A stretch of DNA of 48,543 nucleotides from Gemmatimonadota bacterium (GTDB lineage: Bacteria; Gemmatimonadota; Gemmatimonadetes; Gemmatimonadales; Gemmatimonadaceae). Positions within the stretch are counted from its first letter, which is position 1. Each line of letters begins with the position of its first letter. Both the position numbers and the translations under genes were made by a program. This document shows, one piece after another, positions 7,882-34,503 of this stretch. The stretch covers positions 1 through 48,543 of the forward strand of contig VGVM01000014.1 in assembly GCA_016874035.1 (NCBI GenBank), read 5' to 3'. Under the pieces are notes generated by a model. It was not told the DNA's origin. It saw nothing but the letters and a program-made list of their open reading frames with translations, and ran no database searches.

Positions 7882-7916
7882 CCCGCCCCCGACTCGCGCC
7901 TCCCCCGTCCCGCCTC

Positions 7917-7927
7917 TTATAGTTGTG
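7917..7927 (+). promoter_or_regulatory. Candidate -10 region of the formate dehydrogenase operon
   Basis: TTATAGTTGTG stands out in a GC-rich 82-base gap, 36 bases before the fdhA start. No convincing -35 hexamer is visible. Similar elements precede the genes starting at 45205 and 47861. Confidence 0.35.
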
Positions 7928-7963
7928 CGGAGCAGTTTCGCCGCCCAACCGAGGAGGGTTTTC

Positions 7964-9933: not shown

Positions 9934-9934
<1 letters not shown>
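7964..9934 (+). CDS. fdhA: Formate dehydrogenase molybdenum subunit, selenocysteine-containing, lacking the N-terminal Fe-S domain
   Basis: A continuous frame of 657 codons with one internal TGA (8261-8263, codon 100). Read as selenocysteine it gives IDSCNRT-Sec-HAPSVVGL, the active-site signature of selenocysteine formate dehydrogenases (E. coli FdhF has CARV-Sec-HGPSV), with the conserved His next to Sec. The frame continues through LLWGSNARNAHP, GHVGKWGSGCNPLRGQNNVQGGGDMG and a C-terminal MolyDop_binding domain (TTGRHLDAYNTG). The GTG at 7964 has GAGGAGGG upstream. The protein begins at REYARITQPMVRENG, which in usual enzymes comes after the N-terminal [4Fe-4S] domain. That domain is encoded at the end of the gene at 11874. 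It oxidises formate to CO2 and passes electrons to the NuoEF-like subunit, whose start overlaps its stop (TAATG). Confidence 0.93.
8264..8304 (+). promoter_or_regulatory. SECIS element (selenocysteine insertion hairpin)
   Basis: Directly behind the TGA the RNA folds into a bacterial SECIS. Lower stem GCACC (8267-8271) pairs with GGTGC (8300-8304); upper stem CGTCG (8275-8279) pairs with CGACG (8289-8293). A bulged T (8280) and a C-G pair close the apical loop GGTCTG (8282-8287). A bulged U below a GGUCU loop is what SelB recognises in E. coli fdhF. Confidence 0.88.
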
Positions 9935-11873
<1,939 letters not shown>

Positions 11874-11877
<4 letters not shown>

Positions 11878-13721: not shown

Positions 13722-15386
13722 GTGCTCTCCGATATCGAAATCGCCCAGTCGGTCACTCCGCGCCCCATCGCCGACGTTGCGAAGGAACTCGGCTTCGGTG
13801 CCGACGACATTGACCTCTACGGCAAGTACAAGGCGAAGATTCCGCTCGACGTGAGCCAGCGGCCGGCCAGGGGCAAGCTGGTGCTTGTCACGGCGATCAG
13901 CCCGACGCCCGCGGGCGAGGGCAAGAGCACCGTGAGCGTGGGGCTCGCGCAGGCCATGCGTCGGATCGGCACGAACGTCGTGCTGTGCCTCCGCGAGCCA
14001 TCGCTGGGCCCCGTGTTCGGCGTGAAGGGTGGCGCGGCGGGTGGCGGCTACGCGCAGGTAATCCCGATGGAGGACATCAACCTCCATTTCACGGGCGACT
14101 TCCACGCGATCTCGAGCGCGCATTCGCTGCTCAGCGCGATGCTCGACAACTCGCTGTTTCAGGACAACCCGCTCGGCCTCGACCCTGCGAAGGTGACGTG
14201 GCCGCGCACGATTGACATGAATGACCGTTCGCTGCGGCGCGCGAAGATCGCCGTGGGCGGCGGCACCGCGGGCGTTGAGCGCGACGAGCGCTGGGTGATC
14301 ATCCCCGGCTCAGAAGTGATGGCGATCGTTGCGTTGGCGTCGAGCCGCGCGGACCTCGAGAAGCGACTCGGCGACATCGTGGTCGGCCGCGCGAAGGATG
14401 GCGACCGGCCCGTGCGCGCGCGCGAACTCAAGGCAGTGGGCGCCATGTCCATCCTATTGAAGGATGCCATTCGCCCGAACCTCGTGCAGACGCTCGAGGG
14501 CGGCCCTGCCCTGCTGCACGCGGGCCCCTTCGGCAACATCGCCCATGGCTGCAATTCGATCCTCGCGACGAAGAGCGGGCTCGCGCTCGGCGACGTGGTG
14601 GTGACCGAAGCCGGGTTCGGTTCGGACCTGGGCGCGGAGAAGTTCTTAGACATCAAGTGCCGGTTTGGCGGGCTCAAGCCGGAGGCGGCGGTACTCGTCG
14701 CCACGGTGCGCTCGCTCAAGATGCAGGGCGGACTCGACAAGAAGCAGCTCACGACCGAGGACGTCGGTGCGCTCGAGAAGGGCCTGCCGCACCTGGAGCA
14801 TCACATCCGGAACGTGCAGCAGTTCGGCGTGCCCGTCGTGGTGGCGATCAATCGTTTCGCGGCCGACACCGAGCGTGAACTAAAGATGGTCGAGGCGCAC
14901 GCGGCGAAGCTCGGCGTGCGGGTGGTGCTGTGCGAGGTGCACGCGAAGGGTGGCGCCGGCGGCGAGACGCTCGCGCGTGAAGTGTTGCAGATGCTGAAGG
15001 ACGGCAAGTCGAGCTACGCGCCCATCTACGACGCGAAGCGTCCGATCAAGGAGAAGATCGAGACCATCGTGAAGAAGGTGTACGGCGGCGACGGCGCCGA
15101 CTACACGCCGGCGGCGGAAGAGCAGGTCAAGTATCTCGAGTCGAACGGGATGGGCGAGACGCCCGTGTGCATCGCGAAGACGCAGACGTCGTTGAGCGAT
15201 GACCCGGCCAAACTCTGCAAGCCGACCGGGTTCCGGATCACGGTGAAGGAAGTGTACGGATCCGCGGGCGCCGGGTTCGTGGTGGCGAAGGCCGGGACGA
15301 TCATGACCATGCCCGGGCTGCCGAAGGTTCCGGCGGCCGAGGGGATGTCGGTGAACGACCGGGGGGAGATCGTCGGGTTGTCGTAG
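13722..15386 (+). CDS. fhs: Formate-tetrahydrofolate ligase
   Basis: A 554-residue formyltetrahydrofolate synthetase, ATP + formate + THF to 10-formyl-THF. Family features are present: the nucleotide loop TPAGEGKSTVSVGL, REPSLGPVFGVKGGAAGGGYAQV, MEDINLHFTGDFHAI, EAGFGSDLGAEKF and TIMTMPGLPK near the end. The GTG at 13722 fits the usual N-terminus (SDIEIAQ). It sits 61 bases behind fdhD, so formate can be either oxidised by the preceding enzyme or activated to the folate pool. Length is normal and no defects are seen. Confidence 0.96.
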   Translation: MLSDIEIAQSVTPRPIADVAKELGFGADDIDLYGKYKAKIPLDVSQRPARGKLVLVTAISPTPAGEGKSTVSVGLAQAMRRIGTNVVLCLREPSLGPVFGVKGGAAGGGYAQVIPMEDINLHFTGDFHAISSAHSLLSAMLDNSLFQDNPLGLDPAKVTWPRTIDMNDRSLRRAKIAVGGGTAGVERDERWVIIPGSEVMAIVALASSRADLEKRLGDIVVGRAKDGDRPVRARELKAVGAMSILLKDAIRPNLVQTLEGGPALLHAGPFGNIAHGCNSILATKSGLALGDVVVTEAGFGSDLGAEKFLDIKCRFGGLKPEAAVLVATVRSLKMQGGLDKKQLTTEDVGALEKGLPHLEHHIRNVQQFGVPVVVAINRFAADTERELKMVEAHAAKLGVRVVLCEVHAKGGAGGETLAREVLQMLKDGKSSYAPIYDAKRPIKEKIETIVKKVYGGDGADYTPAAEEQVKYLESNGMGETPVCIAKTQTSLSDDPAKLCKPTGFRITVKEVYGSAGAGFVVAKAGTIMTMPGLPKVPAAEGMSVNDRGEIVGLS

Positions 15387-15478
15387 GGGGCGGCGCCGCA
15401 TCTTGCGCGGCGCGAAAAGGATGAGTGTCGCACGGAATTGGGACGGCACGGCGCGCTAAGCGTGCGCATCTTCGGCGC

Positions 15479-17095
15479 ATGTCTCCCGCACGACCGACGG
15501 TACTCACCGTATTGATCGAACGGTTGAGGCTCCGCCACGCCAGTCCGCGGACCATCGCGGCGTATCGCGGGTGGGTGCTGCGTTACATGCGCTTCCACCG
15601 CGGGCGCCATCCTCGCGATCTGGGCGAACGTGATGTGACGGGTTTCTTGTCAGCACTCGCCACACGCCGGTCGGTTGCCGCTGCAACTCAGAACCAGGCG
15701 CTGGCTGCCTTGTTGTTCCTGTATCGCGAGGTGTTGCAGCAACCCTTCGGCTGGCTTGACGCGCTCGTGCGCGCCAAGCGGCCCCACCGCACACCGACCG
15801 TGCTGTCGCGCGACGAGGCTCGGCGGGTCATCGAGGCCATGGACGGAACTGAACGACTCGTGGCCATGGTCCTGTATGGGACCGGTGCGCGACTGGGTGA
15901 GGCGCTTTCGTTGCGGGTGAAGGATGTGGACCTGGATCGGTACGAAGTGGTCATCCGGCGCGGGAAAGGTGGGCGCGATCGCATGACCATGCTGCCCGAG
16001 TCGCTCCGCTCCGCGATAGCTGCGCAGCTCAACCACGTGGCCGAGCTGCATCGGCGCGACGTCGCGGCAGGGCGTGGATCAGTGATGTTGCCGGATGCGT
16101 TTGGGACCAAGTCGCCCGGCGCGGCGTTTGACCTGCGATGGCAGTGGCTCTTCCCGGCCACGCGATCGTACGTTGACTCCGAAACGGGCCGACTCATGCG
16201 CTACCACTTGCATCACGCGGCAGTACAGCGCGCCGTTGTGGCGGCGGCGCGGCGCGCGGGCGTGACCAAGCGGGTAACCTGCCACACCTTCCGTCATTCG
16301 TTTGCGACCCACTTGCTCAAGGCCGGCTATGACATTCGTACCGTGCAAGAGCTGCTCGGACACCGCGATGTGATGACGACGATGATCTACACGCATGTGC
16401 TCAATCGCGGTGGCCATGGTGTGCGGAGCCCGCTCAACGGACTGGATATTGCACGGGCGCGCGCCGAGTCCCCTCCGATCGCGGATGCTATGCCCTCCAC
16501 CCACCTCACCCCCGGTCCTGCTCTCAGCCTAGAACTGGAGAAAGCACGGGGGGAACGTCATCGGGAACAGGACCGCCGCGCCGTCTACCAATGGCTCGCG
16601 CAATCGGACCTGACACCGTCGATGATGGGACTGCCCGACTTTCCTGACTCCCCGGTCCCAACCTGGGAGGAGTTTTGCGGAGACTACGGGCCCCATTTTT
16701 TCGACGGGTCGCGTCCGGAAGTCGGGAGGTCCTTCCTCATCGAAGTCGCTGGCGAGGCGGTTGGCCACGTGAACTACGACGGGCTCGACTCAGGCCGCGG
16801 CATCGCGGAGCTGGACATCTGGCTCCGCTCCAGCGCGGACTGCGGGCTTGGATATGGCCCGGAAGCCCTGCGCGCGCTCACCCGATCCCTGCACGAGGCG
16901 TTCGGGATCACCGAGTTCATTTTGCGACCGTCGCGGCGCAACGTGCGCGCGATCCATGCCTACACGAAGGCCGGCTTCTCCATGCTGCCGCTGACCAACG
17001 AGGAACAAGCGAAGGTCTACGGAGCCGGCGACTATCGCGATACCGTGGTCCTGCACCTGCGGTGGCCGACGACCGACGCGATTCGTCCGGGGTAG
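15479..17095 (+). CDS. intI: Integron integrase (IntI) fused to a GNAT acetyltransferase
   Basis: A 538-residue two-domain protein. Residues 1-322 are an integron-type tyrosine recombinase. The catalytic set Arg138, Lys163, His269, Arg272, His295, Tyr304 lies at a constant offset of eight from IntI1, and the IntI-specific region between boxes (FDLRWQWLFPATRSYVD) is present. It ends with the family C-terminus YTHVLNRGGHGVRSPLNGL. With no stop, a short linker leads into a GNAT domain (about 350-530) with QDRRAVYQWLAQSDLTP, GEAVGHVNYDG, the acetyl-CoA loop LGYGPEAL and RNVRAIHAYTKAGF, resembling AAC(6')/RimJ-type enzymes. An internal ATG at 16490 could be the old acetyltransferase start. The integrase start is ATG 15479; a GTG at 15425 is possible. 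No clear attI is seen. Confidence 0.9.
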   Translation: MSPARPTVLTVLIERLRLRHASPRTIAAYRGWVLRYMRFHRGRHPRDLGERDVTGFLSALATRRSVAAATQNQALAALLFLYREVLQQPFGWLDALVRAKRPHRTPTVLSRDEARRVIEAMDGTERLVAMVLYGTGARLGEALSLRVKDVDLDRYEVVIRRGKGGRDRMTMLPESLRSAIAAQLNHVAELHRRDVAAGRGSVMLPDAFGTKSPGAAFDLRWQWLFPATRSYVDSETGRLMRYHLHHAAVQRAVVAAARRAGVTKRVTCHTFRHSFATHLLKAGYDIRTVQELLGHRDVMTTMIYTHVLNRGGHGVRSPLNGLDIARARAESPPIADAMPSTHLTPGPALSLELEKARGERHREQDRRAVYQWLAQSDLTPSMMGLPDFPDSPVPTWEEFCGDYGPHFFDGSRPEVGRSFLIEVAGEAVGHVNYDGLDSGRGIAELDIWLRSSADCGLGYGPEALRALTRSLHEAFGITEFILRPSRRNVRAIHAYTKAGFSMLPLTNEEQAKVYGAGDYRDTVVLHLRWPTTDAIRPG

Positions 17096-17107
17096 ATTCT
17101 CTCGTTG

Positions 17108-17983
17108 ATGCTTCACAACATGGTCGCTGGTGAACGTCTCCTGCTCGATGGCGCGACCGGCACGGAACTGACGCGGCGCGGTGTGGACACCGGCTTGCCG
17201 TTGTGGTCGGCGAACGCGCTCACCACCGAGACCGGACTGAATGTCCTGCGCCAGGTTCACCTGGACTACCTGCACGCAGGCGCGGATGTGCTCACCACCA
17301 ACACCTTTCGCACCCATCGCCGTGCGTTGGCGGGCCCGGGGCACGGCGCGCGCGAGCTGACCAGCCGCGCGGTAGCGACCGCCCGCGAGGCCGTCGCGCA
17401 GTTCGGTCAGCGTGCGAGAGTGGCCGGCTCGGTGGCCCCACTGGAAGACTGTTACCGCCCCGACCTGGTGCCGACCGACGACGAATGCCGCGCCGAGCAC
17501 GCCGAGCGCATCACTCATCTTGTCGAGGCGGGCGTTGACCTCCTGTTGATCGAGACGATGAACTCGATCCGCGAAGCCGTGATCGCGGCCCAGCAGGCGA
17601 CGAGCACCGGGCGGCCCACTTGGGTCAGCCTGGTGTGCGACCGTGAAGGCCGAATGCTGTCCGGCGAATCGGTGGCGGTCGCCGCCGAGATGTTGTTACC
17701 ACTGGGAGTGCGGGCACTTGGCGTGAACTGTGGCCCGGCTCACACCCTGGCGAAGCCGCTGGCCGAGTTGCGGGCGATCTGTGGCCCCGATTTTCCGCTC
17801 ATGGCGTATGGGAACATTGGCCATGCCGACGAGACGCAAGGCTGGATCAACACCGACGCCGTAAGCCCGGAGAGTTACGCGCAATGGGCCCACACGTGGC
17901 CGGCGCAAATCGTGGGCGGCTGTTGCGGCACGACGCCGGAGCACATTCGCAAACTGAGAGTGGATAGAAGCCAGGCGACATGA
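17108..17983 (+). CDS. Homocysteine S-methyltransferase (BHMT/MmuM family)
   Basis: A 291-residue zinc-dependent methyltransferase that moves a methyl group to homocysteine to make methionine. The family opening LLDGATGTELTRRG and the three zinc thiolates (Cys208 in GVNCGP; Cys272 and Cys273 in GGCCGTTPEHI) are present. The donor may be glycine betaine, S-methylmethionine or another small methyl donor. The next gene encodes a dimethylglycine/sarcosine-dehydrogenase-type enzyme that would consume the product of betaine demethylation, so betaine is the best guess. The start is ATG 17108, 12 bases after the integrase-GNAT stop; TTG 17105 and ATG 17120 are alternatives, and no strong ribosome site is visible. 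Confidence 0.87.
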   Translation: MLHNMVAGERLLLDGATGTELTRRGVDTGLPLWSANALTTETGLNVLRQVHLDYLHAGADVLTTNTFRTHRRALAGPGHGARELTSRAVATAREAVAQFGQRARVAGSVAPLEDCYRPDLVPTDDECRAEHAERITHLVEAGVDLLLIETMNSIREAVIAAQQATSTGRPTWVSLVCDREGRMLSGESVAVAAEMLLPLGVRALGVNCGPAHTLAKPLAELRAICGPDFPLMAYGNIGHADETQGWINTDAVSPESYAQWAHTWPAQIVGGCCGTTPEHIRKLRVDRSQAT

Positions 17984-18058
17984 ACTCGACGCGGCGGGCA
18001 AAGTGCGCGTCGGGGATAGACCAGGTGCGCATGAACGACAGCCACCCGTGAGCGGGCG

Positions 18059-20479
18059 ATGAAGAGCAGAACGAATGTGCTCATCATCGGTGGCGGCGTC
18101 GCCGGGTGCAGCTTGCTATATCACCTGGCAAAGCGCGGCTTCACGGACGCCGTGTTGGTGGAGAAGAACGAGCTGACGAGCGGCTCGACGTGGCATGCGG
18201 CTGGACTCTGCACCCAGTTCAACGCGAGCTTCAACATGATGAAGCTCCTCCGATACAGTGTCGAGCTTTACCAAACACTCGAATCCGAGACCGGGCAGCC
18301 CGTCGGTTACCACCGTTGCGGCAGCCTGCGTCTCGCCACCTCCGAGGCGCGGCTCGATGAGTATCGCCACCGCAAAGGGATGGCGGATACGTTAGGCATC
18401 CCGTTCGAGATCGTCTCTCCCGAAAGAGCATTGGAGCTCTTCCCGCTCGCCGATCTCTCCGATGTCCATGGCGCCGCCTATCTACCGTCGGACGGTCACG
18501 TGGACCCGAGCGGCGTCACCCAAGCCTTTGCGAAAGGCGCGCAGTCGAAGGGCGCCGAGATCGTTCGTCATGCGGCAGTGACCGGTATCGAGCGCGCGGG
18601 CGGGTCCTGGATCGTCCATACGTCGCAGGGCGACATCCGTGCAGAGACTGTCGTCAATGCCGCTGGCCAGTGGGCACGTTCACTCGGGCGGCTCGTTGGG
18701 ATCGACCTCCCGATCGTCCCGCTCGAGCACCACTTTCTCGTCACGGAAGCCATCGATGCGGTCGCCGCCATGGGCGTCGAGCTTCCGGTTCTCCGCGATG
18801 CCGACGCGTCGTTCTACGTCCGGCGTGAGGGAGATGGGCTTCTCGTAGGTCCCTTCGAGCCGCATACGAAGCCGTGGGGCCTCGACGGTATCCCTGACGA
18901 TTTTCATAGCCGCCTGCTGGAGCCGTCGCTCGATCGTCTCGGAGAGGTGCTCAAGGCCGCGGCGAAGCGCGTGCCGCTGCTCGCCGATGCAGGCATCAAG
19001 ACCATCGTGAACGGGCCCGATGGCTACACACCGGATGGACGGTGTGTGATGGGGCCGGTGCCGGGACTTCCCAATTTTCACGTGCTCGCGGGCTTCAGCA
19101 TCTTCGGGATCGTGTTCGGAGGCGGTGCTGGAAAGTATGCCGCCGAGTGGATCGTGGACGGACAGCCGAGCGACAACATGTGGGAAGTCGATGTGCGTCG
19201 CTTTGGTGATTATGCGCGCTCGACGCAATATGTGGCGGAGCGCGCCGTCGAGGTCTACGGGCACGAATACGCGATCCACTATCCCGAGCTCGAGCGATAC
19301 GCGGGCCGCCCCCTCAAGACCGGACCTCTCTACGATCGGCTTCTCGATAGAGGCGCTGTGTACGGCGCGCGTTTCGGTTGGGAGCGGCCCTTGTGGTTCG
19401 CGCCCGAGCGCGGCGCAGAAGACGTCTATTCGTTTCGCCGCGGCGGCTGGCACGACGCCGTCGGGGCGGAGTGCCGGGCGGTACGCGCGCGCGTCGGCGT
19501 GCTCGACCAGACGAGCTTCGCAAAGTACGAAGTCTCGGGACCTGGCGCCACCGCGTTTCTGGATCGGATGTGTGCGAACAAGCTCCCACGAGCCGAGGGC
19601 CGTATGGCGCTCACTCAGATGTGTACGCCGAAAGGCGGGATCGAGTGCGACCTCACGGTGACGAAGCTCGGTTGCGACCATTATTACGTCGTCTCCGCCG
19701 CCGGCACCGAGAGCCACGACCTCGCCTGGATCCAACGTCACCTGCCCGGGGACGGCTCGGTTCGTCTCGACAATGTCACCGGACGCTACGGGGTCTTGAC
19801 GATCGCTGGGCCTCGCTCGCGCGATCTGTTGCAAGCACTGACGGAGGCGGATTGCTCGAACGAGGCGTTTCGCTTCTTCCGCTATCGGGAGCTCGTTATC
19901 GGGATGGCGCCGGTACGAGCGCTTCGGGTGTCTTACGTCGGCGAGCTCGGCTACGAGCTCCATCACCCGCTCGAGTACCAAAGGCATCTCTACGACCTGT
20001 TGATGGCCGCGGGAGAAGAACATGGCATCGTGGACTTCGGCTATCGCGCACTCGACGCGATGCGCCTCGAAAAAGCCTATCGACTCTGGGGCGTCGACAT
20101 CTCCGCGGACTACACGCCGATCGAGGCCGGGCTCGATCGTTTCGTGGACTTTGGCAAGGGCGACTTCATCGGCCGAGACGCTCTCGTCCAGCAGCGCGAC
20201 GAAGGTGCGACAAGAGGGCTCGCGTGCCTCGCGATCGAGACCCAGGACTGTGACGCGCACGGATACGAACCCGTACGCGCGGGAAGGCGGATCATCGGCT
20301 ATGTTGCGGCGGGGGGGTACGGCCCCGTGGTCGAGGCGTCGATAGCGCTCGCCTATCTCCCGGCGGAGTTCCTTGCTCCAGGGATCGAGCTGACGGTCGA
20401 GTTGCTGGGAGTCGAGCGCAAGGCGACGGTCGTGGCGCAGCCCTTGTACGACCCCAAGAACGAGAAGCTTGTGAGCTGA
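18059..20479 (+). CDS. Dimethylglycine/sarcosine dehydrogenase-type flavoprotein with folate-binding GcvT domain
   Basis: An 806-residue enzyme with the DMGDH layout: a DAO-type FAD domain (GGGVAGCSLLYHLAKRG), an FAO middle domain, then GCV_T and GCV_T_C aminomethyltransferase domains. The covalent-flavin histidine motif GSTWHAAG is present (His46). It should oxidatively demethylate dimethylglycine or sarcosine and hand the one-carbon unit to tetrahydrofolate as 5,10-methylene-THF. No signal peptide. The gene lies 75 bases behind the homocysteine methyltransferase and one base before the next gene. Substrate (dimethylglycine, sarcosine or another N-methyl amine) cannot be fixed from sequence. 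By eye the region is somewhat less GC-rich than its surroundings. Confidence 0.88.
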   Translation: MKSRTNVLIIGGGVAGCSLLYHLAKRGFTDAVLVEKNELTSGSTWHAAGLCTQFNASFNMMKLLRYSVELYQTLESETGQPVGYHRCGSLRLATSEARLDEYRHRKGMADTLGIPFEIVSPERALELFPLADLSDVHGAAYLPSDGHVDPSGVTQAFAKGAQSKGAEIVRHAAVTGIERAGGSWIVHTSQGDIRAETVVNAAGQWARSLGRLVGIDLPIVPLEHHFLVTEAIDAVAAMGVELPVLRDADASFYVRREGDGLLVGPFEPHTKPWGLDGIPDDFHSRLLEPSLDRLGEVLKAAAKRVPLLADAGIKTIVNGPDGYTPDGRCVMGPVPGLPNFHVLAGFSIFGIVFGGGAGKYAAEWIVDGQPSDNMWEVDVRRFGDYARSTQYVAERAVEVYGHEYAIHYPELERYAGRPLKTGPLYDRLLDRGAVYGARFGWERPLWFAPERGAEDVYSFRRGGWHDAVGAECRAVRARVGVLDQTSFAKYEVSGPGATAFLDRMCANKLPRAEGRMALTQMCTPKGGIECDLTVTKLGCDHYYVVSAAGTESHDLAWIQRHLPGDGSVRLDNVTGRYGVLTIAGPRSRDLLQALTEADCSNEAFRFFRYRELVIGMAPVRALRVSYVGELGYELHHPLEYQRHLYDLLMAAGEEHGIVDFGYRALDAMRLEKAYRLWGVDISADYTPIEAGLDRFVDFGKGDFIGRDALVQQRDEGATRGLACLAIETQDCDAHGYEPVRAGRRIIGYVAAGGYGPVVEASIALAYLPAEFLAPGIELTVELLGVERKATVVAQPLYDPKNEKLVS

Positions 20480-20480
20480 C

Positions 20481-22379
20481 ATGACATTCAGCGACAAAGA
20501 ACTCGGAATGGACCGCGTCATCTCGCGGCGCGATTTCGTCAATGGCGTCGCCGCGTTGACCGCAGCCGCGGCGATGCCCGACTGCGGGCTTGCGTGCGCT
20601 CCGCAAGCGGCACAGGGCGACTACCCACCACGCCGTACCGGCCTTCGCGGGAGCCATCCCGGCTCCTACGAAGCGGCCCACCGGCTGGCACGGAGCGACC
20701 GACAGGATTGGGGCCCCGTTCGGAATGCGGAGCCCCACGCCTACGACTTGATCATCGTCGGCGCGGGCATCAGCGGATTGTCGGCTGCCCACTTCTATCG
20801 GAAGGAACATCCCGAAGCACGCATCTTGATCCTCGACAACCACGATGACTTCGGCGGTCATGCGAAGCGCAATGAGTTCGCGCTCGACGGGCGCACGGTC
20901 ATAAGCTACGGTGGGAGCCAGGTGCTCCAGGATCCCGGCAGCTATAGTGCCGTCGCCAAGGGCCTGCTCGAAGATCTCGGGGTCGACACAAGGACTTTCA
21001 AGACCGCCTACGATCACGAGTTCTATCGGCGAAACGGTCTCGCGGGTGCCACCTATTTCGACAGCGAGACCTATGGCAGCGATCGGCTGGTCGGTCGCTC
21101 CCTGGTCGACTATGCGTTCCTGCCGCTCGCTCCATACGCACTCGATGTGAAAGAGGCCGTAGCGCAGATGCCTCTGGGGGAGAACGCTCGCCGTGAGCTT
21201 CTGGAGCTACTCCAGGCCCGCGGCAATCGCCTGCCTGAGATCCCGAAGAGCGACCAGGCACGATACCTTCGGCGGCTGAGCTACCGAGACTTCCTCGCAC
21301 GCCACATGGGAGTCACCGACCCCGAGGTCTTCGCGCTCTATCAAGGTTTGACCGCGGATTCGACGGCCAGCATCGAGGCCTCTTCGGCGCTGGACGTCAT
21401 GAGCTATAACGGACTTCCGGGATTACGGGCGACCGCCATCGCCGATTTCAACGACGATTCAGAGCCTTACATCTTTCATTTTCCCGACGGAAACGCATCA
21501 ATCGCGCGGCTCCTGGTGCGGAACATGATTCCCGGCGCGGCACCGGGAACGACGATGCACGACATCGTATTGGCGAGATTCGACTACTCGAAGCTGGACG
21601 AGCAAGAGGCGAGCGTCCGCCTGCGTCTGAACAGTACGGTCGTCCGTCTGGAGCACGACGGCGCGGTCGACCAGGCGAGGCAGGTGACAGCGACCTACGT
21701 CAGGGACGGCAAAGCCTATCGGGTGCGTGGCAAGCACTGCGTCATGGCCGGATACAACGCCATGATCCCGCACATGTGTCCGGAGCTTCCCGCGGGGCAG
21801 CGCGAGGCGCTTTCATTCGCCATCAAGGCCCCCATCGTGTACACGAGCGTATTGCTCAGGAACTGGCGCGCCTGGAAGAGACTGGGGATCGGTTTCTTCG
21901 CCGGTCCGGGCGCGTACTACGCGGTCTCGATGCTCGACTTTCCCGTCAGCATGGGTGGTTATGCGTTCTCGGCGAATCCGGATGAGCCGATCGTCGTGCA
22001 CATGGAGAGATTCGCCGTGGGGAACGATCCGAAAGCGACGAGGAGACAGCAGCGGCTCGCGGGTCGACGAGAGTTGTTCACCACGTCCTTCGAGACCCTC
22101 GAGCGCAAGACGCGTCGCCAACTTGCGGGAGCGCTCGTCGGAGGCGGGTTCGCGCCAGCGGAAGACATCGCCGCGATCACCGTGAATCGTTGGGGACACG
22201 GCTATTCGTATCGGTACCGCCCGGAATGGGACTCCGGGTACGAGGGCGACGAGGCGCCGCACGTCGTGGGCCGTCGCAGATTCGGACGCATCACGATCGC
22301 CAATGCCGACGCCGGCGCAAGCGCCTCCGTCGACGCGGCGATCGATCAGGCACATCGCGCGATTGAGGAGCTCGACTAA
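20481..22379 (+). CDS. Spermidine-dehydrogenase-like FAD protein with Tat signal
   Basis: A 632-residue flavoprotein resembling Pseudomonas SpdH. The N-terminus has a twin-arginine motif ISRRDFVNG (residues 14-22) and a hydrophobic stretch, so it is likely exported folded. The FAD motif is IIVGAGISGL (residues 91-100), followed by ILDNHDDFGGHAKRNEF, a conserved SpdH-like block. The C-terminus has NRWGHGYSYRY and FGRITIANADAGA. Family role: oxidation of spermidine or related polyamines in the periplasm. The ATG at 20481 follows the dehydrogenase stop by one base; a start at 20508 (MDRVISRRDF) would also keep the Tat motif. Co-transcription with a methylamine-type dehydrogenase suggests shared amine breakdown. 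Confidence 0.8.
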   Translation: MTFSDKELGMDRVISRRDFVNGVAALTAAAAMPDCGLACAPQAAQGDYPPRRTGLRGSHPGSYEAAHRLARSDRQDWGPVRNAEPHAYDLIIVGAGISGLSAAHFYRKEHPEARILILDNHDDFGGHAKRNEFALDGRTVISYGGSQVLQDPGSYSAVAKGLLEDLGVDTRTFKTAYDHEFYRRNGLAGATYFDSETYGSDRLVGRSLVDYAFLPLAPYALDVKEAVAQMPLGENARRELLELLQARGNRLPEIPKSDQARYLRRLSYRDFLARHMGVTDPEVFALYQGLTADSTASIEASSALDVMSYNGLPGLRATAIADFNDDSEPYIFHFPDGNASIARLLVRNMIPGAAPGTTMHDIVLARFDYSKLDEQEASVRLRLNSTVVRLEHDGAVDQARQVTATYVRDGKAYRVRGKHCVMAGYNAMIPHMCPELPAGQREALSFAIKAPIVYTSVLLRNWRAWKRLGIGFFAGPGAYYAVSMLDFPVSMGGYAFSANPDEPIVVHMERFAVGNDPKATRRQQRLAGRRELFTTSFETLERKTRRQLAGALVGGGFAPAEDIAAITVNRWGHGYSYRYRPEWDSGYEGDEAPHVVGRRRFGRITIANADAGASASVDAAIDQAHRAIEELD

Positions 22380-22616: not shown

Positions 22617-25160
22617 ATGCTGACTCCTCGACTCGCCGCGTTCGCGGCTAGCGTCGCGCTCGCGACCAGCGCGACCCACGTGTGCGCGCAGCAGGGCGCC
22701 CCACGCCCGGCAACGCCGGCCCCAGGGCAACCTCCGGCGCCCCTCGGCCCGGGCGAACTCCGCCTCACCTACCTCGGCAACGCCGGCTGGGAAATCACGG
22801 ACGGGCGCCGCGTGGTGCTCGTGGACCCGTTCCTGACGCAGTTCGCGCGCTGGCGCCCGGGAGCGGCGCCCGAAGGCCCGGACCCCAATGCACTGTATGC
22901 CCCGGACACGACGCTGATCAACCAACATGTCAGCCGGGCCGATTACGTCCTCATCACGCACGGGCATTCGGATCACGCGCTCGACGCCGGCTACATCGCG
23001 CGGAAGACGGGCGCCGCGATCATCGGAAGCGAGACGGCGGCCAACCTGGCGCGCGCCTACGCCGTACCGGAGCAGCAACTCATCACCGTGCGTGGCGGTG
23101 AAGACTACGACTTCGACGATTTCTCGCTTCGGGTCATCCCCAGCATTCACAGCGCCCTCGACGACAAACGCTACTTCAGCAACGGCCGCGACATCGCCGG
23201 CACCGCTCCGCGCGGGCTCAAGGCGCCGCTCCGCCGCCGCGACTACCAGGAAGGCGGCAGCTTCGCGTACCTGCTCCGCATGAGCGGCCACGAAGTGCTG
23301 ATGATGGGCTCGATGAACTTCATCGAGCGTGAGATGGTTGGCTTGCGGCCGAACGTTGCGCTCGTGGGCGCCAACAGCCAGCGGCTCGAGATCTACGACT
23401 TCACCGGCCGCCTCCTGCGAGCGCTCGGCCACCCCGCGTTGGTGATCCCGAGCCACGCCGACGCGTACGGCAACCCGCGGCCGCCTGCGGCCGTACTGGC
23501 AGACCGCGCGAAGTTCTTCGATGAGGTACGCGCGGCCTCGCCCGGCAGCCGGACGATCGCTCCGACGTGGTTCACGCCGATCGTCGTGCCGGCGCGCGGC
23601 GCGGCAATGACGGCCGCGAGCACGGCCAGCGGTCGCGAAGTGATCAACCCGCCGGGACTCAAGCCGCTGGTGCCGGCGTATTCGGTCGCGATTCGTGACG
23701 GCGACTGGGTGTTCGTCTCGGGGATGACAGGCGTGAAGCCCGGCACGCAGGACATCATCGAAGGCGGCGCGGCCGTGCAGACCCGTCAGACCATGGAGAA
23801 CATCAAGGCGGCAGTCGAGTCTGGCGGCGCAACGATGGCGGATGTCGCCGAGTGTACGGTGTACCTGAAGGACATGGCCGACTACGCGGCGATGAACGCC
23901 GAGTACATCAAGTTCTTCCCAGTCAACCCGCCGGCGCGCGCGACACTCGCCGTGACGGCGATGCCGCGGCCCGCAGCGGTCGTCGAGATCAAGTGCAGCG
24001 CGAGACGGACGCGCGAGGCGACGGCGCGGCCGGACGCACCGGCTCCCAATGCGGCTGCTGCGAATCCGACGGCTCCCGAGGCGCAAGCCGTCACCGCGGG
24101 GGCTGGCGCGCGCAGCTTTGTGAGAGCACTCGCGCTCGAGGATTCCGGGTTCACTTCGGCGAACGCCAGCATCGGCGACGTCAATCGCGACGGACACCTC
24201 GACATCGTGCTCGTGAAGGGGCGCCACTGGCCCTTGCAGAACCTGGTGATGCTCGGCAATGGCAACGGCACGTTCCAGAAACCGCTGCCCGTGGACACGG
24301 CGGCGGATCGCTCGTATTCCGGCGTGCTCGTGGACCTCGATCGCGACGGCGCGCTCGACATCGTGGTCAGCAACGATGCGCCCGACGAGAAGAAGGTGTA
24401 CCGCAACGACGGGACGGGGCGGTTCGCGCTCGTCTCGAAGTTCGGCAAGCCGGAATGGAACACGCGGCACGTCGCCGTCGGCGATGTGAGTGGGGACGGC
24501 ATTCCGGATCTCGTGCTCGCCAACCGCGGCAGTCGCGAGCCGACAGCGAGCTTTCTCTGCCTTGGGCTCGGCGGTGGCCGGATCGCGGAGCGGTGCCAGG
24601 AAGTGTCCCGTGGGTCCGCCACGACGATCACGATGGCGGACGTGAACCGCGATGGCTCGCTCGACTTGATTGTGCCGTACCGCGACGGCGGGCAGGGCTA
24701 CGTGTACTTCAATGATGGCCGCGGCACGTTTGCGAGACGTCAGCCGTTCGGACCTGACAAGGCAACCATCCGCAGCGCCTACGCAGCCGACTTTGACGGC
24801 GATGGGATCATGGACCTCGCCGCCATTGATGAACTCGGCAGCGCAATGACCATGAACGGCCTGCGCGGTGGCGCGTTCGCCGCTCCCGTATTGATGGGCC
24901 CTGCAGGTGCGCGGCCGTACGCGCTCGCCGTACACGACGTGGACGGCAATGGCCGACCCGACGTACTCGTGGGCTACACCCGCGGTCGCTCGATCGTGTT
25001 CTTCAACGACGCGCCGGGGCGATTCACACCGGTGCCGTTCGGCGGCGCCGAGGGCGTCGTGTACGGGTTCGCGGTGGCGGACCTGGACAAGGACGGCAAG
25101 AACGACATCGTGGTCGCGCGCTCGGACGCGCGCAACATGGTGTACTTCGGCAAGCCGTAG
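22617..25160 (+). CDS. Secreted fusion: metallo-beta-lactamase-fold hydrolase, RidA domain, FG-GAP/VCBS propeller
   Basis: An 847-residue protein with a signal peptide (cleavage near residue 24). Residues 45-330 are an UlaG-like MBL-fold hydrolase: TYLGNAGWEI, metal motif HGHSDHALD (His115, His117, Asp119, His120) and a late SHAD. Residues 335-465 are a RidA/YjgF domain: VFVSGMTG, VYLKDMADYAAMN, and NPPARATLAV with the substrate arginine (Arg441). Residues 500-847 hold about seven FG-GAP/VCBS repeats with Ca-binding motifs such as DVNRDGHLDIV, DLDRDGALDIV and DLDKDGKNDIV, probably a beta-propeller. No frame break is visible across the joins. The combination suggests an extracytoplasmic enzyme on an adhesive or scaffold domain; the substrate is unknown. 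Confidence 0.85.
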   Translation: MLTPRLAAFAASVALATSATHVCAQQGAPRPATPAPGQPPAPLGPGELRLTYLGNAGWEITDGRRVVLVDPFLTQFARWRPGAAPEGPDPNALYAPDTTLINQHVSRADYVLITHGHSDHALDAGYIARKTGAAIIGSETAANLARAYAVPEQQLITVRGGEDYDFDDFSLRVIPSIHSALDDKRYFSNGRDIAGTAPRGLKAPLRRRDYQEGGSFAYLLRMSGHEVLMMGSMNFIEREMVGLRPNVALVGANSQRLEIYDFTGRLLRALGHPALVIPSHADAYGNPRPPAAVLADRAKFFDEVRAASPGSRTIAPTWFTPIVVPARGAAMTAASTASGREVINPPGLKPLVPAYSVAIRDGDWVFVSGMTGVKPGTQDIIEGGAAVQTRQTMENIKAAVESGGATMADVAECTVYLKDMADYAAMNAEYIKFFPVNPPARATLAVTAMPRPAAVVEIKCSARRTREATARPDAPAPNAAAANPTAPEAQAVTAGAGARSFVRALALEDSGFTSANASIGDVNRDGHLDIVLVKGRHWPLQNLVMLGNGNGTFQKPLPVDTAADRSYSGVLVDLDRDGALDIVVSNDAPDEKKVYRNDGTGRFALVSKFGKPEWNTRHVAVGDVSGDGIPDLVLANRGSREPTASFLCLGLGGGRIAERCQEVSRGSATTITMADVNRDGSLDLIVPYRDGGQGYVYFNDGRGTFARRQPFGPDKATIRSAYAADFDGDGIMDLAAIDELGSAMTMNGLRGGAFAAPVLMGPAGARPYALAVHDVDGNGRPDVLVGYTRGRSIVFFNDAPGRFTPVPFGGAEGVVYGFAVADLDKDGKNDIVVARSDARNMVYFGKP

Positions 25161-29314: not shown

Positions 29315-29425
29315 GGGGCGAAAGTACCGCGCGCGCAAAGCGCCCGGCACTTGGTCAGGTGGGCGCACCAGTACATTCTGCCCATGCGCTCCGCCGCCGA
29401 ATCCCACGCCTATCACCGGCACGCC

Positions 29426-31198
29426 ATGCTACGAAGGATCCTTGCGCCTATCGCAGTGCTTGCGGCCATCACGTCCACGGCCGCGGCTCAACAGGCAACC
29501 GCGAACGCGGCGCGGAGCTCGCCTGCCATCACCGCGCTCTCCGACAGCCTCCGCGCCGCTCGGCGTGGGGGCGGTCCGCTGCCGCTGCCCGAGGGCAGCG
29601 ACCCGCGCTACAGGGATCGACTGGGCGTCGTGTCGCTGGACCTGTTCGAACGGGAGCGCGCGAACCTCGAGCGACTGGTTCCCTACGTCGCGGCGATCGA
29701 CCGGCGCGCGTTCACGCGTGCGGACTCACTCGACCTCGCCATTCTCGAGCGGCAGTTCACCGATCGGCTCGCGGAACTGCGGTTCCGGAGCTACCTGCTG
29801 CCGCTCGGCAGCCGCAGCGGCTTTCACTTCGACTTTGCGGGCCTGCCGAAGTCGAGCCCCTTCGAGACGGTAGCAGACTACGACCGATACATCGCGCGCA
29901 TGCAGTCGTGGCGCGTGCACGTCGCACAGCAGGCCGCGCTGCTCCGCGAGGGCATCCGGCGCGGGATGGTCATGCCGCGCGCGGTACTCCAGGGCTATGA
30001 CCGCACCGCCGGCACGTATGTCGTGGACGATCCCGGCCAGAGCGCATTCGCTGAACCGCTCCGACGCCTGCCCTCGACCTTCTCCGCCGACGATCGCGCG
30101 CGCATCCAGAGAGACGGCATGGCGGCCATCCGCGAGTCGGTGCTCCCAGGGTTCGCCGAGCTCGCGCGGTTCTTCCGTGAGGAGTACATCCCGGCGGGCC
30201 AGGCGTCGCTTGCCGCGACGGCACTGCCGGACGGCCGCGACTTCTACGCGCACCGCGTGCGGATGTACACCACACTGGACGTGACGCCGGAACAGGTGCA
30301 CGAAACCGGACTGCGCGAGGTCGCGCGCATCCGAAGCGAGATGGACGCTATCCGGCGCGAGGTTGGATTCCGCGGTGACCACGCGGCGTTTGTGGAGTTC
30401 CTGCGCAACGATCCGCGCTTCACCGTGGCGACCGAGGCGGAGTACCTCGCACTGGTATCGCATGCGGCCAAGTTGATGGACGGCAACCTGCCGCGGCTGT
30501 TCGGTCGCCTGCCTGTAACTCCCTACGGTGTGCGCGCAATGCCGGCGCACGTCGCACTGCGGCAATCCGCCGGCTACTACGACCGCGGCGCCGCCGACGG
30601 CACGCAGGCGGGGTGGGTGAACATCAACACGTCGATGCTGGCCTCGCGGCCCACTTGGGCAGCGCGGGCGTTGGCGTTCCATGAAGGCGCGCCGGGACAC
30701 CATCTGCAGATCATGATGGCGCTGGAGAATCCCGCGCTCTCGCAGACCCGACGCAATGCCTCGATTACGGTGTTTGTCGAAGGCTGGGGCCTGTACGCCG
30801 AGCGCCTCGGCGTCGACGTCGGCCTCTACAACGATCCGTACGACCGCTTCGGTATGTGGAGCTACCAGATCTGGCGCGCCTGCCGCCTCGTCGTGGATAC
30901 GGGCATGCACGCGCTCGGTTGGACCCGCGAGCGCGCGATCGCATACATGGCCGAGCATACGGGTATGACCGTCGAGGCGGTCACGGCGGAAATCGACCGG
31001 CACATCACCGAGCCCGGCCAGGGACTCGCGTACACGATTGGCGAACTGGTCATCAGTGAACTGCGTCGTGACGCCGAGCAGCGCCGCGGATCCCGCTTCG
31101 ACATCCGTGCGTTCCATGAGGCGGTCCTGCGGAACGGGGCGCTGCCGCTGGGGTTGCTGCGGGAGGAAGTGCAACGCTGGATCGCTGCGGCGCGTTAG
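29426..31198 (+). CDS. DUF885 family secreted metallo-enzyme
   Basis: A 590-residue protein of the DUF885 family, helical zinc-peptidase-like proteins related in motif to M32/M3 peptidases. The metal motif HEGAPGHH and the downstream glutamate motif VEGWGLYAERLG are both present, with the C-terminal AYTIGELVI. A signal peptide starts at ATG 29426 (MLRRILAPIAVLAAITSTAAAQQ); ATG 29384 and an upstream start at 29351 only add residues before it. It is likely a periplasmic carboxypeptidase or aminopeptidase of unknown specificity. It ends 21 bases before the end of the convergent M1 peptidase gene. Confidence 0.85.
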   Translation: MLRRILAPIAVLAAITSTAAAQQATANAARSSPAITALSDSLRAARRGGGPLPLPEGSDPRYRDRLGVVSLDLFERERANLERLVPYVAAIDRRAFTRADSLDLAILERQFTDRLAELRFRSYLLPLGSRSGFHFDFAGLPKSSPFETVADYDRYIARMQSWRVHVAQQAALLREGIRRGMVMPRAVLQGYDRTAGTYVVDDPGQSAFAEPLRRLPSTFSADDRARIQRDGMAAIRESVLPGFAELARFFREEYIPAGQASLAATALPDGRDFYAHRVRMYTTLDVTPEQVHETGLREVARIRSEMDAIRREVGFRGDHAAFVEFLRNDPRFTVATEAEYLALVSHAAKLMDGNLPRLFGRLPVTPYGVRAMPAHVALRQSAGYYDRGAADGTQAGWVNINTSMLASRPTWAARALAFHEGAPGHHLQIMMALENPALSQTRRNASITVFVEGWGLYAERLGVDVGLYNDPYDRFGMWSYQIWRACRLVVDTGMHALGWTRERAIAYMAEHTGMTVEAVTAEIDRHITEPGQGLAYTIGELVISELRRDAEQRRGSRFDIRAFHEAVLRNGALPLGLLREEVQRWIAAAR

Positions 31199-31219
31199 GG
31201 TGCAGCCGTCCGCCGCGCG

Positions 31220-32872
31220 CTACGGCCCCTTCGCGACGGACGCCTCCATCAGGACCCACTGGTTCGGATCCAGCCGCACGTCGGTCGGCTCGGACGCGAC
31301 GTCGATCAGGAAGGTCTCGACCTTCCCGGTCACCTGCACCCGGTGGATCGTCGGCGTGGCCTGCCCGGCAACCTGGACCGCGACCTCGAGCGGCATCGCG
31401 ATCAGGCTTCCCGCCTGTACCTGCTCGAGCGTGAGCCGCACCTGCTTGGCGGACGCATCGTAGCTCCAACGGCCGGCGAGCTTGAGGTTGCCCGGCTCGT
31501 AGAGCCACTGCTGGAAGAACCGACCCAGGTCGCGGCCTGACGCTTCTTCCATCGCCCGGCGGAAGTCGGCCGTCGTCGCGGTCGCGTTGAAATGGCGCTG
31601 GTAGTAGGTGCGGATCCCGCGACGGAACGCCTCGTCGCCGATCACACCGCGCAACATGTGCAGGACCCAGCTCCCCTTCTGGTAGGTGTGCGAGCTGGTG
31701 ACATCCTCCATGCGGCTCAGGTTCTTGTGGATGATGGTGTAGCCGGGATTCGCCGCGCCGAAGGTCATCACGGTGCGCCGGCTCGCCTCGAGGCCCCGCA
31801 CGAACTCATCGCGCCCGTACGCGTGCTCGATGAACATCAGCGTGAAGTACGTGGCAAACCCCTCGCTCAGCCACACGTCGTCCCAGTCGGCCTCGGTCAC
31901 CGAGTTCCCGAACCACTGATGGGCGACCTCGTGGATCACGACGTTGCGCCAGCGGACGCTTCGCGTGCCGGTCACGGAACTCTCGTGATACAGGATCGCC
32001 GAGGCGGACTCCATGCCTCCCGCCACACTGCTGGCCTGGATGTTGGCGAGTCGCTCGTACGCGAACGGGCCCACGTAGTCACTGTAGTACGCGAGGACGT
32101 CCTTGGTGGGAGTCGCGAAGTCGGCGAACCCTGCGTCGCGGTCCTGGGGATAGACCCAGGTCTCGATCGGCTTCCCCTCGAACGTGTCCACCCGCTGCAT
32201 CGCGAACCGCGCCACGCCGAGCACGTAGAGCCAGGGCGAGATGGGTACCGAGTTCCGCCAGTGCGTGCGGCGGCGGCCACCGGGCAGGTCGGTCGCCTCG
32301 ACCACGAGACCGTTGGACACGACCTGATAGTGGCTGGGCGCCGTGACGATAAACTCGCTCGTCGCCTTGTCGTACGGATGGTCAATCGTCGGCAGCCACT
32401 GCCGCGTCCTGTTGGGCCAGTTGTCGCTGAAGAAGGTGCGATCGCCGTGCTTGTTACGGCCGATGATAAGTCCGGTGGCCGGAATGCCCGCGTATCGCAC
32501 GACGACGCGCGAACGCTGCTGTACACGCGGCGCGGCGCCGAGCGGGATGAGCAGCTCGTCGTTCGCATGCGTGAAGCGCACCGCGGCGCCATCCAGCAGG
32601 ACCGACGAGACCTGCATGCCTTTCCCGCCGCGCGCCGGCGACGTGTTGGTCAGGTCGAGCCGCACCGCCCGGACATCGGCGGAGAGGAAGCGCACGTCCA
32701 TGGACAGCTCGCCCACGATCGCGTCGGTCGTGTCGGAGAGCTCGATCCGGAAGGCGTAGTTGATCGCGTCGATCGCGGGGTTCTTGGGGTACGTGTCGAA
32801 CGCGGGAGCCGGCGCGACGAACACCGCCGCCATCGCGAGGCGCGAGCCGAGTGCCAGGAGTCGGCGGCTCAT
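31220..32872 (-). CDS. M1 family metallo-aminopeptidase
   Basis: A 550-residue secreted peptidase with a signal peptide (MSRRLLALGSRLAMAAVFVAPAPA), an N-terminal beta-domain and a gluzincin catalytic domain. The zinc site is HEVAHQWFGN with the third ligand in LSEGFATYF. The exopeptidase motif, GAMEN in typical members, reads GGMES. The long C-terminal helical domain of classical PepN is absent, as in short bacterial M1 enzymes. It should release N-terminal residues from peptides. The start overlaps the stop of the M24B peptidase gene (ATGA), so the two are coupled and may act together on proline-containing peptides. Confidence 0.92.
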   Translation of the reverse strand: MSRRLLALGSRLAMAAVFVAPAPAFDTYPKNPAIDAINYAFRIELSDTTDAIVGELSMDVRFLSADVRAVRLDLTNTSPARGGKGMQVSSVLLDGAAVRFTHANDELLIPLGAAPRVQQRSRVVVRYAGIPATGLIIGRNKHGDRTFFSDNWPNRTRQWLPTIDHPYDKATSEFIVTAPSHYQVVSNGLVVEATDLPGGRRRTHWRNSVPISPWLYVLGVARFAMQRVDTFEGKPIETWVYPQDRDAGFADFATPTKDVLAYYSDYVGPFAYERLANIQASSVAGGMESASAILYHESSVTGTRSVRWRNVVIHEVAHQWFGNSVTEADWDDVWLSEGFATYFTLMFIEHAYGRDEFVRGLEASRRTVMTFGAANPGYTIIHKNLSRMEDVTSSHTYQKGSWVLHMLRGVIGDEAFRRGIRTYYQRHFNATATTADFRRAMEEASGRDLGRFFQQWLYEPGNLKLAGRWSYDASAKQVRLTLEQVQAGSLIAMPLEVAVQVAGQATPTIHRVQVTGKVETFLIDVASEPTDVRLDPNQWVLMEASVAKGP

Positions 32873-34326
32873 GGACGCACCCCCGACGGTGGCACCGGCT
32901 TGTGCATCTGCACCATCCCCTGCTCGGCGATCACCTGCTGCACATCGCTGATGCGCGCCGGCACGAACCCGCTGAGGTTCTCCACGCCGTCCGCAGTGAC
33001 GAGCGCCACGTCCTCGATGCGGATGTAGAGCCGCTCCTCGGGGATCCAGATCATCGGATCAATCGTGAAGACCATGCCCGCCTTGAGCGGCACGCCACGC
33101 ACGCGTCCCACGTCGTGCACCGCCATCCCCACCGGGTGCTGGAAGTGTCCGCGGAAAACGAGCCCTTCCTCGACCGCCTTGCGGTGGGCGGGTGAGGCAA
33201 ACGTCTTCCCGACGAGCCACTGCCGCATGTCCGCCGCCGCGCGGTCGAGCACCTGGTCGGCGGTGACGTCCGGCTTGATGTGACGGAAGAAGGCATCGCG
33301 GTACTCGACGATGAACTCGTACAGCGCAGCCTGCGCCTTCGTGAACGTCCCGTTCACCGGCCAGATGCGCGTGACGTCGCTCGTGTAGTAGCGGTAGTCG
33401 GGCGCGTAGTCCATCAGCACCAGGTCACCGTCGCGCAGCGGGTCGGTCTTGCGGAAGTAGTGCCCCATGAACGCGTTCGTCCCGCCGCCGATGATCGAGG
33501 AGTAGCCATCGCCGCGCGCGCCGTTCAGGTAGTGCACGTATTTGGCGGCGGCGTCGAGCTGGTACTCGTACACGCCGGCGGCCGTCGATCGCATCGCCTC
33601 CATGATCCCGAGCCCCGCGAGCTGCGTGGCGCGCCTGATGAGCGCGATCTCCGCGGCGCTCTTGATGGTGCGCATCGCATCGAGCGTCGGGGAGAGGTCG
33701 CGCACCGCGAACTGCGGGAAGCGTTCCGCGACGAGCCGGACGAAGTGGGCCTCGCGCGATGGGCGGCCGTCCCAGGGATCGGCAGCGATGCGGGCCTGGC
33801 CGGCAAGCAGTTCGTCGCGACTGTCGTTGCCCGTTTCCATCGGGGCGAGCGGCGTAAACAGGGTCATCGCCGGCGGGCGGAGGAGATCCGCGCCCGTGAG
33901 GTCCTCCGAGAGACCCTCGAGCCCGCGCACGCGATCGACGCCGCTGAGCTGGATGAGGAGCAGGCTGTCCTCGACCGAGAGCACCTTCCCTTCCCCGCGC
34001 TCGCGGTCGTCGTCCCGCCGCGGGAGGTACAGCGTGGTCCGCCGCGTGCGGCCGTTCAGCAGCAGGTAGGCCTGCGCCGACTCGACGCCGCTCAGGTAAT
34101 AGAAGTCGTTCGACTGGCGGACCAGGCTGAATCCCGGCACGCCGCTCGTGCCCTGCACGACTGCGATCCCCTGCGTGCCGATGGCGTCGTACACGCGCGC
34201 GCGGCGGGAAGCGAGTTCCGCGGCGCTGAAGTCCGTCTGGTAGTAGTGCGGCGCCTGCGCGTGGCCGCCGAGTGGCAGCGCGAGGACAAGTCCGGCTGCG
34301 AGGACGAGAGGAGGGCGAGTCGGCAT
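32869..34326 (-). CDS. Secreted Xaa-Pro aminopeptidase (M24B)
   Basis: A 485-residue pita-bread metallopeptidase that removes N-terminal residues preceding proline. An aminopeptidase-P N-terminal domain (FYYLSGVESAQAYLLL) leads into the M24 fold with the metal ligands: two Asp in LVLMDYAPDYRYYTSDVTR, His in GHFQHPVGMAVHDVG, Glu in FTIDPMIWIPEE and Glu in RIEDVALV. The ATG at 34326 gives a clear signal peptide (MPTRPPLVLAAGLVLALPLGGHAQ); the frame extends to 34488 but without family similarity. It is first in the operon with the M1 peptidase. Confidence 0.92.
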   Translation of the reverse strand: MPTRPPLVLAAGLVLALPLGGHAQAPHYYQTDFSAAELASRRARVYDAIGTQGIAVVQGTSGVPGFSLVRQSNDFYYLSGVESAQAYLLLNGRTRRTTLYLPRRDDDRERGEGKVLSVEDSLLLIQLSGVDRVRGLEGLSEDLTGADLLRPPAMTLFTPLAPMETGNDSRDELLAGQARIAADPWDGRPSREAHFVRLVAERFPQFAVRDLSPTLDAMRTIKSAAEIALIRRATQLAGLGIMEAMRSTAAGVYEYQLDAAAKYVHYLNGARGDGYSSIIGGGTNAFMGHYFRKTDPLRDGDLVLMDYAPDYRYYTSDVTRIWPVNGTFTKAQAALYEFIVEYRDAFFRHIKPDVTADQVLDRAAADMRQWLVGKTFASPAHRKAVEEGLVFRGHFQHPVGMAVHDVGRVRGVPLKAGMVFTIDPMIWIPEERLYIRIEDVALVTADGVENLSGFVPARISDVQQVIAEQGMVQMHKPVPPSGVRP

Positions 34327-34503
34327 TCGGGGTCCCAGGGCAGGGTCGAGACGGGAAGCGCGGGGTCGAGGGATCTGGGGCGAATGTATGGGAGCGCCGT
34401 CGGGCCCGCTATCGCACAGCGAGGCTGGCGCGCCGATCGGAACGCCTGCAAACTCATCCATCCGCCAGCACGACGGGCATCGCGGCACTTTTCACACGGC
34501 AAC

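Follow-up and report, generated by a model that had tools for sequence, protein, structure and literature searches.

The window analysed here, a 48,543-nt stretch of DNA from a Gemmatimonadota bacterium, encodes a protein in which an MBL-fold hydrolase, a RidA domain and an FG-GAP propeller follow a signal-like N-terminus in a single reading frame. RidA accompanies this MBL or a close relative of it at all 25 loci counted, fused to it at 18 and encoded by an adjacent gene at 7, and in another class of the same phylum related MBLs are paired with other Rid modules and with propellers. Because of these two observations, the MBL-RidA-propeller partnership is, as judged by sequence, real, old and extracytoplasmic. 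The repeated fusion and splitting, and the varied Rid modules found with one MBL family, favour a shared pathway for these predicted activities.

A three-part fusion encoded by one gene

The gene occupies a single uninterrupted ORF at positions 22617–25160 (+ strand) with an ATG start, 847 codons for amino acids and no internal stop. Its definition as a predicted exported MBL-RidA-FG-GAP fusion rests on the ORF, on Pfam matches and on homologues with the same domain order. The earlier note had described a three-part secreted protein and suggested a domain-architecture search; when this was run, PF13483/PF12706, PF01042 and PF13517 were all matched in the one ORF behind the signal-like start, in keeping with that description. 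Residues 1–25 (22617–22691, +) read by eye as signal-peptide-like, with a basic start, a hydrophobic run and V-C-A|QQ, and resemble a Sec signal; export of the window protein is thus predicted by eye from the N-terminal sequence. The MBL-fold domain follows at aa 45–330 (22749–23606, +; PF13483/PF12706, structure model and VIA-align to 3x2y), then the RidA domain at aa 340–466 (23634–24014, +; PF01042 and fold match to 1x25), an Ala/Pro low-complexity linker at aa 467–499 (24015–24113, +; read from the sequence and weakly conserved among homologues) and a seven-blade FG-GAP propeller with seven calcium-type loops at aa 500–847 (24114–25157, +; Pfam, model and Foldseek). An ORF of 1116 aa overlaps the gene on the opposite strand and, since G+C content is high, was taken for a by-product of it. 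A promoter and terminator scan returned nothing exceeding shuffled sequences.

The source genome is MAG-like (3.08 Mb in 191 contigs, of which the window is contig 14) and some relatives encode the parts apart, both of which would fit separate genes joined by assembly or gene calling. Against this, the MBL-RidA-propeller order is intact in two further assemblies, L039 (a protein of 866 aa) and L049 (848 aa, encoded on a contig of 720 kb). The same order is present in L038, with the propeller broken through a frame change. In comparisons among the window, L039 and L049, dN/dS was 0.075–0.096 for the MBL, 0.087–0.165 for RidA and 0.090–0.147 for the propeller, while the second linker was short and partly saturated. 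High values over aa 1–44 (0.27–0.75) fit the expectation for a signal region. By these ratios MBL, RidA and propeller are all under strong purifying selection. An assembly join is therefore excluded and an artefact of any such kind is extremely improbable. Of the two observations that the earlier note had named as refuting it, an assembly join and homologues always encoded apart, neither was made, 18 of 25 loci being fused.

The MBL domain and its metal site

The MBL domain matched PF13483 (Lactamase_B_3) at aa 49–186 with an E-value of 2.7e-9 (37.6 bits against a gathering score of 24) and, more weakly, PF12706 (Lactamase_B_2; 3e-7). A single-chain model of aa 26–466 built with 48 aligned rows had a mean pLDDT of 88.2, and its MBL part superposed on TM1162 (3x2y) with Z 23.8 and 2.7 Å over 218 residues (VIA-align). 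The least certain segment is the loop between H178 and S232, where model residues 157–164 have pLDDT below 50. The domain shares with UPF0173/UlaG-like MBL hydrolases such as TM1162 the fold and the H-x-H-x-D-H, His, His ligands, and differs from them by a motif-4 Asp to Ser replacement, an extra loop between H178 and S232 and predicted export. Since it scored 55.2 bits against a cut-off of 144 for NCBIfam PRK00685 (UPF0173), it is UPF0173-like in fold without being a member of UPF0173. A β-lactamase role was rejected, the NCBIfam bla_class_B_core score being 17.6 bits against a cut-off of 100.

The usual MBL metal-ligand set comprises seven residues, the motif-4 Asp among them. The earlier statement that the metal ligands are kept stands for six residues, H115, H117, D119 and H120 in the HGHSDH motif (22959–22976, +), H178 and H280, and falls for the seventh: the motif-4 Asp of TM1162 aligns with Ser232 in GSMN (23310–23312, +; GS over GD). 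All six ligand residues are invariant in a 22-row alignment and in 14 more diverse rows, two alignments that have loci in common. At the motif-4 position Ser was found in 22/22 rows of the first and in 13/14 of the second, the remaining row carrying Gly.

This replacement may have altered the metal centre. Taken further, it could mean that the MBL has ceased to be a hydrolase and serves as a binding or regulatory domain instead; the presence of Ser or Gly for Asp in every row of both overlapping alignments, and of Thr in a Streptomyces relative (L187), goes in this direction. The invariance of the other six ligand residues speaks against it. Moreover, subclass B3 β-lactamases carry Ser at the comparable place, bind two zincs and are active, so that the change need not abolish hydrolysis by this MBL. 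Loss of hydrolytic activity thus appears quite improbable, and we proceed with the MBL as a putative hydrolase.

The RidA domain

RidA is recognised by PF01042 at aa 354–462 (E 9.4e-26; 90.6 bits against a gathering score of 27.3), and the RidA part of the model superposed on 1x25 with Z 22.4 and 1.3 Å over 128 residues (VIA-align). Because it scored 88.7 bits against a cut-off of 106.25 for NCBIfam TIGR00004 (Rid family detoxifying hydrolase), we file it as a Rid-domain protein outside that named subfamily. The active-site residues R441 (23937–23939, +; in PPARAT, by motif reading and RidA alignment) and E457 (in VEI) are both present, and the earlier note was right that the RidA arginine is kept. 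Catalytic roles of Arg105 (in TdcF) and Glu120 are described for RidA (PMC4433059). The domain thus has in common with the Rid family (RidA/YjgF/YER057c/UK114, PF01042) the fold and the catalytic Arg and Glu, and differs from its usual members in being predicted as exported and in having an MBL joined on one side and a propeller on the other.

Rid proteins are typically trimers (PMC4433059), and in Escherichia coli HOCl can activate RidA as a chaperone (PMC4284807). One could therefore regard the RidA part mainly as a trimerising scaffold or holdase, with the MBL as the only enzyme that matters. The Arg motif, however, was found in 30/30 rows of Gemmatimonadaceae-type RidA and in 3/3 rows of PF14588-type Rid, as well as in 5/5 outgroup rows; in two triple-RidA proteins, four of the six units have it and the third unit of each does not. 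In addition, among the matches listed in a 298-genome phylum sample, 9 genomes have a close RidA without a close MBL. A purely structural RidA seems improbable in view of this, and a catalytic RidA is the reading retained here.

The earlier note had taken RidA for a normally cytoplasmic, single-domain protein. This needs correcting, as among the nearest relatives found 44/59 have signal-like or lipoprotein-like starts, by a crude, home-made hydrophobicity rule that misses short signals (e.g. L004 of the same genome) and is possibly fooled by long upstream reading frames, and in a biased sample obtained by a six-peptide-pattern scan. Many RidA relatives with such starts, some of them beyond Gemmatimonadota, are among L060–L114. 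This group of exported Rid proteins seems little studied.

The FG-GAP propeller

PF13517 (FG-GAP_3) matched the C-terminal part in four stretches with an E-value of 1.4e-43 (147.7 bits against a gathering score of 26.9). Loops of the form D-x-[DNS]-x-[DNS]-G-x-x-D lie at seven places (residues 521, 573, 623, 675, 725, 774 and 822), and the single-chain model (22 rows, pLDDT 93.5) has seven blades, which agrees with the calcium-type propeller announced earlier. The best Foldseek match was 9etn (CRTAC1; E 2.5e-12), with lectins and integrins lower in the list. Fold and seven calcium-type loops are common to FG-GAP/VCBS propellers (CRTAC1, PVL lectin, integrin alpha), while sequence identity to the structural matches listed is 10–20%.

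Arrangements of the modules in close relatives

The close MBLs in these counts have 68–90% identity over the whole protein or the MBL part, with one entry per genome; L059 was dropped, its contig ending inside the MBL. The window order, MBL-RidA-propeller, recurs in L039, L049 and the broken L038, whereas the propeller comes first (propeller-MBL-RidA) in L043, L044 and L045. An MBL-RidA fusion adjoins a separate propeller gene in L042, L047 and L048, and has no propeller within the stretch covered in L018, L040, L041, L046, L050, L057, L115 and L151 (contig ends truncate the stretches of L018, L050 and L151). MBL and RidA are adjoining genes in L017 and L051–L056, with a divergent propeller gene at three of these split loci (L053, L054 and L056). 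Without MBL, RidA is fused to a propeller in L138 and stands alone in L139–L144, L157 and L172, with a propeller gene adjoining in L142. Where a separate gene encodes RidA, the start of the protein reads by eye as a signal of lipoprotein or Sec type, and in split versions each part has its own export signal.

Most loci of the close group belong to Gemmatimonadaceae; L050 and L115 are from Sphingomonadales, and L046 comes from a genome (G294) assigned to another class, which is either transfer or mis-binning. In L115, from Sphingomonas sp. 35-24ZXX, the MBL-RidA fusion occupies 7899–9260. In the sample of 298 genomes of the phylum, at least 15 have a close MBL, in-frame with RidA in at least 11 and with RidA adjacent in at least 4.

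Phylogeny of MBL and RidA

In an MBL tree of 41 rows, the four propeller-last rows form a clade (100/98); L043 and L044 pair with each other outside this clade (100/99), and the position of L045 is open. The three propeller-first rows form a clade in the RidA tree (99/97). Since propeller-first and propeller-last rows lie apart in both trees, the propeller was probably acquired in two or more separate events, at opposite ends. Rows with split MBL and RidA are found in at least two places beside fused rows: L056, L054 and L053 with the fused L042 (100/97), and L055 and L051 near L050 and L115 (87/84). Both Sphingomonadales rows nest inside the Gemmatimonadaceae group, which suggests that these copies were gained by transfer. 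The standalone RidA genes of L140, L141 and L157 lie among propeller-last rows in the RidA tree, where many forks are open, suggesting a loss of the other parts. The very long branch of the Streptomyces row and the long branch of L145 make their placements in the MBL tree unsure.

A second class of Gemmatimonadota and plasmid relatives

Another Gemmatimonadota class carries MBLs with 45–51% identity to the window MBL. The set comprises 20 loci, one of which (L145) belongs to the window's own family. At 10/20 loci at least one partner was found; the other ten are without, some of them on short contigs. A predicted exported PF14588/PF01042 Rid is fused N-terminal to the MBL in L153, L155 and L181, three fusions that may represent one event. 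A predicted exported triple-RidA gene adjoins the MBL in L154 and L179. Three tandem RidA domains are also found in the 3x-RidA proteins noted in PMC4433059, along with rare double or quadruple Rid-Rid fusions; compared with 3x-RidA proteins as given there, those of L154 and L179 have a signal-like start and that of L179 also has an amidohydrolase fusion. In the latter (L179:3100–5121, − strand), the predicted exported triple RidA is fused to Amidohydro_2 and the third RidA unit is without the catalytic Arg. A propeller gene adjoins the MBL in L153, L179 and L182–L185 (the last four from one genus), with 4-bp overlaps except in L179. L180 has an amidohydrolase adjoining the MBL, and in 15/20 loci no Rid adjoins it. 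A PQQ dehydrogenase-FG-GAP propeller fusion is convergent with the MBL gene in L149 (2794–6141, +). Since 18 genomes of 2.0–5.5 Mb had 5–12 Rid-domain and 11–79 FG-GAP repeat matches each, adjacency to any one given gene by chance should be rare (around 1% for Rid, a rough estimate).

Spread by plasmids was rejected: 4 of 72,556 plasmid records matched, each of them along the MBL part alone and with less than 80% of the query covered. On pSCAT of Streptantibioticus cattleyicolor, an ORF for which the plasmid table lists no gene (L187:14794–15825, +) encodes an MBL relative of 41% identity, which has a Tat-like start and reads GTAN where the window protein has GSMN. The ORFs read beside it, judged by eye, included no Rid gene.

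Possible function of the fusion

Work on Rid proteins has treated them as a defence of the cytoplasm against imines and enamines. The domains of the window protein are each known; their exported, repeatedly rebuilt combination appears undescribed in the open-access literature searched.

We propose, at a little under an even chance, that the fusion is an extracytoplasmic bifunctional enzyme with MBL hydrolysis, RidA imine/enamine removal and a propeller for anchoring or binding. The metal-bound MBL would act on a nitrogen-containing compound by cutting an amide, lactam or lactone bond in it. RidA would then hydrolyse the imine or enamine that this reaction, or else a partner oxidase or peptidase, sets free; ammonia and a carbonyl compound would result, and the reactive intermediate would be removed before it spreads. 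Imines made by FAD amine oxidases can be hydrolysed by Arg-bearing RidA (PMC4433059), which would make such an oxidase a realistic imine source. Assembled as the usual RidA trimer, the protein would have three arms of each kind, MBL and propeller, and the propeller might keep the enzyme on the cell surface or attach it to a polymer or partner supplying the substrate. The strict two-step reaction on a scaffold suggested by the earlier note is something that we infer; in some genomes RidA is present without a close MBL, or an MBL has no Rid beside it.

Alternatively, the two enzymes could work in parallel instead of in series, sharing an extracytoplasmic clean-up or nitrogen-scavenging role on different compounds, with fusion ensuring the same place and dose. 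In some genomes each part is alone and predicted as exported, and PF14588-type Rid, RidA and triple RidA all pair with the MBL, so an exact fit between active sites would scarcely be needed. This reading is nevertheless unlikely, though it deserves consideration, given that the close MBL is always with RidA, at 25/25 loci.

Returning to the bifunctional enzyme, a broader and more tentative proposal is that Gemmatimonadota possess a dedicated extracytoplasmic Rid system of MBL, Rid of several types and propeller, assembled more than once, as a fusion or an operon, and processing a reactive nitrogen compound. If true, imines and enamines would be kept under control in the envelope and not only in the cytoplasm: with a conserved exported Rid joined to a hydrolase and a surface-type propeller, imines would be handled outside the cytoplasm too. 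With the partner hydrolase named, the substrate question becomes directly testable, and the fused, split and permuted natural forms constitute a ready construct series.

Genomic neighbours

Directly upstream, a Tat-signal-like FAD oxidoreductase (20481–22379, +; Pfam, with no NCBIfam model above its cut-off) was an attractive candidate imine source, given that FAD amine oxidases are encoded in clusters with Rid genes (PMC4433059). It was rejected and placed outside the conserved system, since a homologue was found in 1/58 loci, the window itself. No conserved oxidase or other imine source was found as a neighbour among the 58 loci, several of which are closely related. Peptidase genes (M1 in 4/58, M24 in 4/58 and S9 in 9/58 loci) and, with names given by eye, malic-enzyme-like (4/58), acetamidase/formamidase-like (5/58) and creatininase-like (2/58) genes were too patchy to be parts of the system. 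Further amide-type neighbours were Amidohydro_2 (2/58) and amidase-like genes (4/58; names partly by eye). Such amide-type hydrolases, not conserved as neighbours, are compatible with nitrogen-compound breakdown.

Elsewhere in the window, DUF885, M1 and M24 peptidase genes cluster at 29351–34488, and M1 and M24 homologues are near the system in L039 too. One-carbon genes lie at 13722–20479 (+), with a formate-THF ligase (PF01268), a homocysteine methyltransferase (PF02574) and a DAO-GCV_T dehydrogenase. Between the first two of them, an ORF at 15425–17095 (+) carries a GNAT acetyltransferase domain (PF13302) after a phage-type integrase (PF00589, PF13495), which is either an unusual pairing or a merged start. 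Finally, one ORF at 9934–11877 (+) combines 2Fe-2S thioredoxin-like, Nuo51 and SLBB domains in a fusion of the NuoE-NuoF type.
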